A stretch of 64,000 nucleotides of DNA. It comes from Methylibium sp. Root1272. Its GTDB lineage: Bacteria; Pseudomonadota; Gammaproteobacteria; Burkholderiales; Burkholderiaceae_C. Every line of letters starts with the position of its first letter. Position 1 is the stretch's first letter. The position numbers were made by a program, and so were the translations under genes. The notes beneath the pieces were generated by a model. It did no database searches. It saw nothing but the letters and a program-made list of their open reading frames with translations, and was not told the origin of the DNA. Below are positions 22,296-24,850 of the stretch, in pieces. Location: NCBI RefSeq assembly GCF_001425905.1, contig NZ_LMDY01000017.1, forward strand, positions 62,945 to 126,944, read 5' to 3'.

Positions 22296-23122
22296 TCTCC
22301 CGTCGTCGGCTGCTGGGCGCCGCCGCGGCGCTGGCGCCTCTTTCCTCTGCGCTCCGTGCCGAGGAGAGCGCGCTGGAGCGCGTGCGGCGCAGCGGGCGGC
22401 TGGTGGTGGCGGTCTACCAGGACATGCCGCCGTTCAACCTGAACGGCCAGGGTGTCGACGTCGATCTGGCCGCGGTGCTGGCCGACAGCGTCGGCGTGCC
22501 GCTCAGCCTGTTGCCGATCCCGGCCGGTGAGAGCGTCGGCGACGACCTGCGCAACGCCGTCTGGCGCGGCCACTACCTCGGCTGGGGACCGGCCGACGTG
22601 ATGCTGCATGTGCCGATGGACCGGCCGCTGATCGAGGCCAATCCGCAGGTCGAGGTGTTCGGTGCCTACTACCGCGAGACGGTCATGCTGGCCTGGGACA
22701 GCGAGCGCGGTCCGGCACCCGAGGCCATCGAGGCGCTGCGCGGGCAGAAGATCGCGGTGGCGGGTGTCTCCCTGCCGGGCTACCTGCTGGCCAGTGCCGA
22801 CTCCGGTGCCCTCCGCGACACGCTCAGCACGCAGCACGCCGACGGCGTGGCAGCGGCCAGGACGCTGCTGGCCGGCGACGTCGTGGCCGCGGCCGGGCTG
22901 GCCTCCGAGTTGGAGGCGGCGCTCGCCGGCAAGCCGCGCTACAAGATCGTGCCGCTGCCGCCGATCCCGCGGGCGCCGCGCAACGGCTGGGTGGTCGGCT
23001 GCGCGGTGAAGCGCGGCGCGACCGATCTGGCGCAGGTGATGCAGCGCCGCCTGATCGACCTCAACAACGGCCCGGGCCTGCGCGAACTCTTCCAGCGCCA
23101 CAACGTGGTCTGGCGCGGCTGA
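22292..23122 (+). CDS. Quinoprotein-associated periplasmic substrate-binding protein (PedG-like)
   Basis: This is a 276-residue member of the family of solute-binding proteins found beside PQQ dehydrogenases. The N-terminus SRRRLLGAAAALA looks like a Tat signal. The mature part begins RVRRSGRLVVAVYQDMPPFN, the usual opening of family 3 binding proteins. No ABC permease or ATPase is nearby, which suggests a role other than transport. The start is a GTG overlapping the pedF stop (GTGA), so it is translated together with the cytochrome. The ligand is unknown. Confidence 0.88.
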   Translation: MISRRRLLGAAAALAPLSSALRAEESALERVRRSGRLVVAVYQDMPPFNLNGQGVDVDLAAVLADSVGVPLSLLPIPAGESVGDDLRNAVWRGHYLGWGPADVMLHVPMDRPLIEANPQVEVFGAYYRETVMLAWDSERGPAPEAIEALRGQKIAVAGVSLPGYLLASADSGALRDTLSTQHADGVAAARTLLAGDVVAAAGLASELEAALAGKPRYKIVPLPPIPRAPRNGWVVGCAVKRGATDLAQVMQRRLIDLNNGPGLRELFQRHNVVWRG

Positions 23123-23181
23123 CTCCCGCGGCGCTGCCGCTCGCGCTCGTTCTGCGCCGACACCGGCGCCTTCCTTCTTCT

Positions 23182-23730
23182 TCAATAGCTGCGGCCCTTG
23201 CGGTATTGCGCATGGGCGCGCCGCGCCAGCGGGCTCACGGCGGCGATCGCCGCCTGCGAGGCACCGGCGTGCGCATGGCAGACCGCGAGGCCGAGCGCGT
23301 CGGCTGCATCCCGGCTCGGCTCGCCGGGCAGCGACAGCAGCCGCGCCACCATGGCCTGCACCTGCTCCTTGCGGGCGTGGCCGTGGCCGACGACGGCCTT
23401 CTTCATCTGCAGCGCCGTGTACTCGGCCACCGCGAGGTCGCCCGACACCAGCGCGGCCAGCGCCGCGCCGCGCGCCTGCCCGAGCAGCAGCGTGGATTGC
23501 GGATTGACGTTGACGAACACGATCTCCACTGCGGCGCAGTCCGGTTGGTAGCGCGCCGCGACCTCGCGCACACCCTCGAAGATGATCTTCAGCCGCCCCG
23601 GCAGGTCGCCGTTCGGCAGCGCATCGGTCCGAATCGTGCCGCTGGCGATGTAGTGCAACCGCGCCCCCTCGCACTCGACCACGCCAAAACCCGTCGTGCG
23701 CAGACCCGGGTCGATGCCGAGGATCCTCAT
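23182..23730 (-). CDS. ruvC: RuvC, Holliday junction resolvase
   Basis: This 182-residue endonuclease cuts Holliday junctions together with RuvAB. The first acidic residue is in [37 protein letters not shown] carries the second, and [14 protein letters not shown] the C-terminal acidic pair. The start is the ATG at 23730, which overlaps the stop of a 49-codon open frame upstream (ATGA). That frame carries a second, 39/43-identical copy of the ruvC 5' end. ruvA and ruvB are not in the window. Confidence 0.94.
23684..23726 (-). repeat. ruvC 5'-end duplication, unit within ruvC
   Basis: This 43-base stretch at the start of ruvC is repeated at 23824-23866 with four differences (39/43). Both copies encode [10 protein letters not shown](T/A)TGFG. 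Confidence 0.85.
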
Positions 23731-23780
23731 GCCGCGCCGCTCCGGACGTGGCCGAGGGTGCAAGGGTTTCGGTGCAGGCT

Positions 23781-23815
23781 CACATCCGCGGGCGGATGTG
23801 AAGCCGCGAAGCGGC
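23781..23815. repeat. Palindromic repeat element (type D) between ruvC and cdsA
   Basis: A perfect hairpin CACATCCGC-GG-GCGGATGTG (23781-23800) is followed directly by GCCGC-GAA-GCGGC (23803-23815). It is flanked by the two copies of the ruvC 5' end. Only one copy was noticed in the window. Confidence 0.65.
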
Positions 23816-23823
23816 GGCCGGAG

Positions 23824-23866
23824 CCAAAACCCGTCGCGCGCAGACCGGGATCGATGCCGAGTATCC
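23824..23866 (-). repeat. ruvC 5'-end duplication, outer unit
   Basis: This 43-base stretch is 39/43 identical to the first codons of ruvC (23684-23726). It lies beyond the palindromic element and just inside the cdsA stop. Confidence 0.85.
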
Positions 23867-23875
23867 GGGTCGCCA

Positions 23876-24850
23876 TCAGAAGCTCAGGTTGAAGTACCAG
23901 CGCACGGAATGGAAGAACACCGGCGCGGCGAAGCACAGCGGCGCCACGCGATCGAGCAGGCCCACCGCACCGGTGACCGAGGCGCGGTTGCCCCAGTAGT
24001 GCACGCCGGCGTCGCGCTTGAGCGCCTTCATCACGAACTCGCCCATCGTGCCGCAGGCGCTGGCGATCAGCGCCATCACCATCGCCTGCCCCGGCTTGAA
24101 GGGCGTGATCCAGTACAGCAGGCCGCCGACGAACGCCGCCACCAGCGCGCCGATCAGCCAGGCGCGGTAGCTGAAGCTTCGACTGATGTGGCGCGCCACC
24201 GGACGGCGGCGCAGGCGCCGGCTCGCAGCCTCCTGCGCGATGTGGGCCACCGCGACCACCAGCACCAGGAAGAACACCAGGAAGGCCCCGCGATCCTCGT
24301 GATTCGGAAACTGCAGCAGCAACAGCGCCGGCGTGTGGCTCATGCCGTAGACGCAGACCATGATGCCCCACTGGATCTTCGCGTTGCGCTCGAGAAAGCG
24401 CTCCGGGTCGCCGGCCAGCGCACTCACCACCGGGATCGCCAGGAAGATGTAGACCGGGATGAAGACCGAGAACAGGTCGAAATTTCGGTTGGCCACCAGC
24501 AGGTACTGCAGCGGCAGCACGATGAAGAAGGCCAGGATCAGGCTGCGGTGATCGCTGCGCCGCGTGTGCATCAGCGTGATGTATTCGCGCAGCGCCAGGA
24601 AGCTCAGCACGCCGAACAGCAGCGTCGCCCCCACCGGGCCCGACACCCAGGCGAGCCAGAACACCGAGGCGCCGATCCACAGCGCGCGCAGTTCGCGCTT
24701 GAAGCGTTCGTGCTGGTCGCGGCCCTCGTCGCTGCGCTCGCGCAGCGAGCGCAGCAGCGCTATGGCGCTGACCAGCAGCAGGGCGCCGAACAGCAGCAGG
24801 AACAGCAGGCCGACCTGCTGCGAGACCGTGAGCTGCCTCAAACCACTCAT
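23876..24850 (-). CDS. CdsA-family (phosphatidate cytidylyltransferase-like) membrane protein with altered signature
   Basis: This is a 324-residue polytopic membrane protein of the CdsA family, with about eight hydrophobic segments. The C-terminal signature region reads [18 protein letters not shown] then [13 protein letters not shown]. In the family signature (KR-x4-KD … HGG-x2-DR-x-D), the KD is here HY, HGG is changed, and the last Asp is Ala; only LDR is kept. So it may not have the standard CDP-diacylglycerol synthase activity. It overlaps the upstream acyltransferase gene by ATGA, which makes a two-gene phospholipid-type unit. It is not the usual cdsA of the lpx cluster. Confidence 0.8.

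Follow-up and report, generated by a model that had tools for sequence, protein, structure and literature searches.

A short hairpin element of beta-proteobacteria recurs beside the ends of conserved genes, where the terminus of the gene is present twice: as an outer copy (T-hat) on the native flank and as an inner copy (T) that completes the gene. This arrangement is best explained, with a probability of roughly one half, by insertion of a non-autonomous REP-like element that duplicates the gene terminus, followed by turnover and recombination of the filled alleles. The window, which is the whole stretch of 64,000 nucleotides from Methylibium sp. Root1272 that was analysed, contains one such junction on its minus strand, in the order cdsA-like gene, 49-codon frame and ruvC (Table 1).

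The ruvC junction and its counterparts in other genera

The direct repeat of the ruvC 5′ end in the window is identical at 40 of 44 nt (91%), with a start-to-start distance of 140 nt, and its two copies are separated by two hairpins and a stretch that is not gene-like. The strand at 23727-23826 (100 nt) folds at -47.4 kcal/mol (z = -2.4), and 4 of 200 shuffled sequences fold equally well. A first-pass annotation had noticed the duplication around a hairpin element (as 39/43), the 49-codon frame and the TGATG and ATGA overlaps at its ends, all of which were found again. It had tied both overlaps to the element; only the ATGA overlap accompanies it, because the congener G003, which lacks the element, has TGATG as well. 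The upstream gene is called cdsA-like because its NCBIfam match to phosphatidate cytidylyltransferase is weak (28.8 bits; cut-off 385). The filler of the window has no likeness to the fillers of other ruvC units except within genera.

Table 1. Parts of the ruvC junction, in window positions
Feature	Position	Strand	Remarks
ruvC, rebuilt start (inner copy)	23182..23730	-	182 aa; NCBIfam TIGR00228, 168.5 bits, over the cut-off
Inner copy T, ruvC 5′ end	23683..23726	-	40/44 nt identical to 23823-23866
Native target end x2 (GGGTTTTGG)	23684..23692	-	
ATGA overlap, outer-frame stop/ruvC start	23727..23730	-	
Filler between x′ and inner copy	23727..23763	-	supplies the new ruvC ATG
Arm x′ (GAAACCC)	23764..23770	-	complementary to target end
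Hairpin element core as modelled	23765..23833	-	84.7 bits with model R1, 78.4 with model R2; covarying fold
Hairpin 2	23780..23801	-	10-bp arms
Hairpin 1	23803..23815	-	
Outer-copy end x1 (GGGTTTTGG)	23824..23832	-	core begins here
Outer copy T-hat, ruvC 5′ end	23823..23866	-	
49-codon frame	23727..23876	-	from outer start through core
TGATG overlap, cdsA-like stop/outer start	23874..23878	-	ancestral; also in G003

The genome search for the hairpin that the first-pass annotation had proposed returned five core copies in the window's own genome, one strong copy at the ruvC junction and four weaker ones at E ≤ 0.001. Two of the weaker copies, one behind a metK-like 3′ end (L237, C12:50946) and one at C17:25660 (L236), have no detectable duplication.

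In a comparison sample of one genome per species, a unit lies after the same ruvC codon in 11 genomes of six genera, that is, in the window's arrangement and in 10 further genomes: G000 and G002 (g1), G018, G271 and G398 (g14), G035 and G200 (g31), G119 and G300 (g115), G022 (g18) and G247 (g147). The annotation had called the junction a rare snapshot, a description that does not survive its recurrence at many genes and in many genera. In G002, two successive units with different fillers follow a different upstream gene, and the second lacks most of the core.

The annotation had also predicted a single ruvC start in relatives lacking the element, as expected of a target-duplicating insertion. 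Such a single start, with no core at the junction, was found in nine congeners: G003, G004 and G005 (g1), G407 and G281 (g31), G188 (g14), and G320, G381 and G151 (g147). Among the core-free junctions inspected by eye, none carried a duplicated ruvC start, the observation that the annotation had named as contrary to its reading; tblastn likewise gave one start each, a count that missed two real duplications (L004 and L007). Other sequence takes the place of the unit at the ruvC junctions of G001, G223 and G348. The insert between the cdsA-like gene and ruvC in G348 (L278) contains an inverted repeat of CACAGAGGCACAGAGACACAGAG, and about 1.2 kb of other sequence in G001 (L005) and 0.96 kb in G033 (L015) separate the two genes, with no repeated ruvC start found. 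No ruvC hit was obtained at the junction in G339, and G438 gave no match at all; the two parts of the junction query match 23 kb apart in G339 (C4:102260 and C4:125646), where the cdsA-like gene and ruvC are seemingly separated.

The core element, its targets and the layout of the units

The core comprises about 60-70 nt and adopts a three-way junction fold in an alignment of 31 copies, in which 15 of the 24 predicted pairs include at least one sequence that is changed on both sides with pairing kept. Rfam covariance models gave no match at E ≤ 1 in window positions 23000-24500. The core family is common across a large bacterial order: model searches detected it in 150 of 399 genomes of the family (E ≤ 0.01) and in 81 of 300 genomes of the order (E ≤ 1e-6), and in a class-wide sample in 2 of 369 genomes, which are the window's own genome and one of its family. 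The exact core pattern occurs in 29 contigs, and all of those that are tellingly named belong to beta-proteobacteria, including Acidovorax, Comamonas, Simplicispira, Ramlibacter, Roseateles, Rubrivivax, Azohydromonas, Thiobacillus, Gallionellales and Methylophilaceae.

Copy number ranges from 3 to 70 in ten genomes, and tandem units were found in G009 and G269 (three each) and in G336 and G419 (two each). The 70 core copies of G242 (L113-L145) lie in many cases within another repeat (CCCCCACGCTCACTT..TCGCTGCCCCC) and are frequently in tandem, and the cores of G806, G910, G079 and G094 (L316-L333, L033) lie within a larger repeated unit whose ends partly resemble AGGCCGTTGAAAAACT. A plasmid or phage vehicle was set aside, since the 140-nt unit had no match in plasmid or phage collections and the core of the one viral contig that carries it (L268) is flanked by unduplicated sequence.

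Flanks align at a score of at least 40 in 79 of 160 tabulated core copies, a sample that leans to duplicated copies because model R1 was built partly from such copies; among mismatched flank pairs, a control inflated by target genes in common, 45 of 956 do so. A reading in which nearly all copies are duplicated was rejected. Duplication is concentrated at gene ends, being present in 73 of 87 gene-end copies vs 19 of 92 others (74/88 and 19/93 rows, L061/L256 and L189/L257 being the same genomic copies). The first-pass annotation had regarded element copies without flanking duplication as evidence against insertion with target duplication. Many such copies exist, for instance 32 of the 36 unassigned copies in G242, which counts in part against that reading; duplication is not a feature of every copy. 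A score of at least 40 was reached by 20 of 54 entries from 40 loci in the order's other families, with arrays and false core matches included.

When the 160 copies are combined with 21 rows from named contigs under the same flank-score criterion (≥ 40), duplicated rows are found at ruvC (12/12, in 11 genomes), argF (30/31), glmS (11/11), metK (5/13), an acyl-CoA dehydrogenase gene (5/8), acsA (4/6), nuoD (2/2), a CobW-like GTPase gene (2/2), and recA, an AlaX-like gene and rlmB (1/1 each), and at unassigned sites (19/93). Targets were assigned by protein motifs, and one representative each was then checked against NCBIfam: the argF, glmS, metK, acsA, rlmB and ruvC representatives score over the cut-off, recA and nuoD are the best matches of partial genes, and the GTPase is CobW-like below the cut-off. 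The same check replaced two names, a target called ivd becoming an acyl-CoA dehydrogenase of open kind, and one called alaS being better fitted by the editing protein AlaXM. In G079 (L035, about 880-1060), a 36-nt tRNA-Ser-like stretch flanks the core on both sides; ARAGORN placed no tRNA over either 36-nt copy, and the tRNA-Ser that it did find in this locus lies apart from them (442-529).

The 67 single-core duplicated copies have repeats of 25-93 nt (median 48) and periods of 114-250 nt (median 149), with unit lengths mostly of 130-160 nt. The flanks are identical in several copies, namely at ruvC of G247 (40/40), argF of G129 (50/50), acsA of L180 (45/45) and glmS of L206 (47/47). In the gene-end copies inspected, the order is constant: outer copy, core, x′, filler, gene end and gene body. 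Genes parallel to the element are hit near their start (ruvC, nuoD, the GTPase gene and rlmB) and antiparallel genes near their stop (argF, glmS, metK, acsA, the acyl-CoA dehydrogenase gene, recA and the AlaX-like gene), which is the expectation if the left-hand 40-60 nt are duplicated and broken genes are lost.

The arm x′ follows the target. It is complementary to its own native target at 10 or more of 12 nt in 28 of 71 copies, compared with 24 of 4,206 unrelated pairs, and the mean match is 8.0 for the own target, 6.9 for the same target in other genomes, 6.9 for the outer-copy end and 5.8 for unrelated targets, values that are underestimates for the observed matches because several argF and glmS rows had a wrongly placed core start. 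Since x′ pairs with the outer-copy end, a self-splicing intron and ribosome bypass were considered; both were provisionally set aside, the element being sense to its 5′-end targets and antisense to its 3′-end targets. An integron attC site was likewise provisionally set aside in view of the attC consensus. Carriage of the filler from a source copy was also rejected, as the best 40 of 775 within-genome pairs consist of 39 from G242 and one from G142, with none between assigned gene-end copies.

Divergence and translation of the repeated gene ends

The differences between T-hat and T are mainly synonymous. In 82 entries, 248 differing codons are synonymous and 109 are not, and the changes at codon positions 1, 2 and 3 number 99, 58 and 259; under free decay of the outer copy, by our own estimate, synonymous differences would make up about 40% of the differing codons and second positions would take one quarter of the changes. 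Second-position changes are 3/58 at ruvC (p = 8e-5), 12/119 at argF (p = 4e-5), 5/54 at metK (p = 0.003) and 5/47 at the acyl-CoA dehydrogenase gene (p = 0.012; all one-sided vs 0.25). The glmS copies depart from the bias (27 synonymous, 37 other), because their repeats extend beyond the stop.

Orthologous-looking units, with fillers at least 62% alike, persist across species. Comparison of units with similar fillers, in which pairs are not independent, gave 148 synonymous and 16 other differences in argF outer copies and 74 and 9 in the gene copies; outer copies of ruvC (11 and 0) and of the acyl-CoA dehydrogenase gene (6 and 0) behave alike. At metK, the outer copies (40 and 22) look less constrained in sequence than the gene copies (42 and 5). 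Five within-genus pairs of ruvC outer copies, likewise not independent, differ by 8, 3, 5, 7 and 3 synonymous codons and by no others. Since divergence is mainly synonymous, the outer copies are not plain decaying scars; many of them either served as working gene ends until a short time ago or are kept by selection, and the former is preferred. The insertion with long target duplication that the first-pass annotation had proposed fits the formation of the junctions and the identical flanks of some copies, but the mostly synonymous differences of the outer copies are not what a plain decaying duplication predicts. Between G000 and G003, the T segment differs in 8 of 15 codons, compared with 30 of about 165 in the remainder of the gene (p = 0.004), and 581 of 600 nt of the flanking cdsA-like gene are identical; the excess in the T segment may be a slight sign of imported sequence.

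At cleanly translated junctions, the outer copy and the core share one frame, e.g. ..TTGF|GFGRR at 5′ ends and ..RSQ|N at 3′ ends. This mini-ORF is linked to the gene through an ATGA or GTGA overlap in 5 of 12 ruvC units (G000, G035, G200 and both units of G002), in 14 of 31 argF, 4 of 6 acyl-CoA dehydrogenase and 2 of 11 glmS entries, and in the sole rlmB unit. Such overlaps, together with the synonymous bias, favor a reading in which the mini-ORF or repeated gene end is translated and under selection, its product possibly being a leader or small regulatory peptide, with the core acting as a cis-acting RNA. In 15 pairs, which are not independent, differences in outer-copy codons are also more often synonymous (60 vs 39 other) than those in same-frame core codons (22 vs 51; p = 1e-4), a result that cuts both ways, because selection would then seem confined to the gene-derived codons and to spare those encoded by the core. 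At 5′ insertions, the overlap is sufficiently accounted for by translational coupling to the gene, whereas the overlaps at 3′ insertions are the best support for a functional peptide. The ruvC mini-ORFs of G018, G271, G398, G119 and G022 stop inside or shortly past the core, no pathway is common to the target genes, and congeners lack the entire arrangement; a functional outer copy is therefore considered unlikely.

Proposed origin and spread of the filled junctions

In the preferred explanation, the small hairpin element would enter after a TTTT-type site, and entry at some 40-60 nt or less from a gene terminus would leave the terminus present twice. The stump T-hat would remain on the native flank and the second copy T would rebuild the gene, whose new start, or new last codons and stop, the filler side would supply. 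Because the duplication restores the gene, insertions at its end would survive, and harmful insertions would be lost by selection. Filled alleles would then turn over through amplification of the unit or its loss between the direct repeats, and the unit probably passes from one lineage to another by homologous recombination, T-hat and the gene serving as its two homology arms. This scheme accommodates the empty and filled ruvC sites within genera, the identical flanks, the tracking of the native target by x′, the tandem units and the constant layout, as well as the direction-dependent hits, the synonymous bias and the T-segment excess of G000 relative to G003. It is less easily reconciled with the duplication of just 19 of 92 copies without an assigned gene end, with the weaker constraint on metK outer copies, with the glmS differences and with the persistence of orthologous-looking units across species. 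No mobilising enzyme was found in the carriers searched for RAYT.

If the hairpins themselves had duplicated the adjacent sequence by template switching or slippage, with no mobile element involved, x′ arms that track the native target would have a precedent in quasipalindrome correction, as described in PMC8604942 and PMC7202029, and common tandem arrays would follow readily. However, the same core recurs at unrelated genes in many genera, and neither core nor duplication is present in empty congeners, which makes such an origin quite improbable. Some integrative elements restore the gene end that they enter, leaving the stump and the restored terminus as direct repeats. The present units share these repeats at conserved gene ends and might be remnants of such an element, the gene end being its attachment site, yet they are mostly 130-160 nt long, without an integrase, and a single core serves many unrelated targets; together with the results for plasmids, phages and the viral contig, these differences render this origin still less probable. 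Mobilisation by a REP-associated tyrosine transposase (RAYT) would suit a short, palindromic, dispersed element with up to 70 copies per genome. A search for Y1_Tnp (PF01797) in 12 carriers, however, found it in 4 and missed it in 8, among them G000 and the four richest carriers, G242, G315, G142 and G151, and a RAYT origin was rejected on this ground as scarcely credible.

By analogy, the family probably works like REP sequences or MITEs, but it is filed as neither, because RAYT is missing from 8 of 12 carriers and because its repeats are long and variable and its arms depend on the target. Like REP sequences and REPINs, the elements are short, palindromic, dispersed, mostly extragenic and present in many copies (3-70 in ten genomes, with covarying hairpins); unlike them, they have a three-way-junction core, a target-complementary arm and duplicated gene ends. 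As far as excerpts of PMC10969869 describe MITEs, these too are under 500 bp, non-autonomous and flanked by direct repeats that are lost with time, whereas the direct repeats here (25-93 nt, median 48) are not of a short fixed length, and in place of a fixed terminal inverted repeat there is an outer arm that varies with the target. A few search terms gave no matches in PMC3733652 and PMC12306157, and a literature search at the level of search results found no description of this hairpin family.

Rickettsia palindromic elements are likewise read in frame with coding sequence. There the element lies inside the protein, whereas in the present units a restored gene end stands next to it.

Direct repeats of 45-60 nt flanking hairpins are expected to be lost often. 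Because the units persist across species even so, their retention needs selection or regain. Tentatively, such a micro-element without an enzyme of its own might persist and spread between species by carrying the duplicated ends of conserved genes as homology arms, so that ordinary homologous recombination places the unit after the same codon and leaves the gene unharmed. If true, this would explain the recurrence at the same codon across genera, the synonymous divergence of the copies and their patchy presence. The family illustrates how essential genes can tolerate insertions at their ends, in that the end is rebuilt beside the element and, in part of the cases, translation is rejoined through a stop/start overlap. 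Its many filled and empty sites offer a direct testing ground for the formation of long target duplications and for homology-arm transfer.
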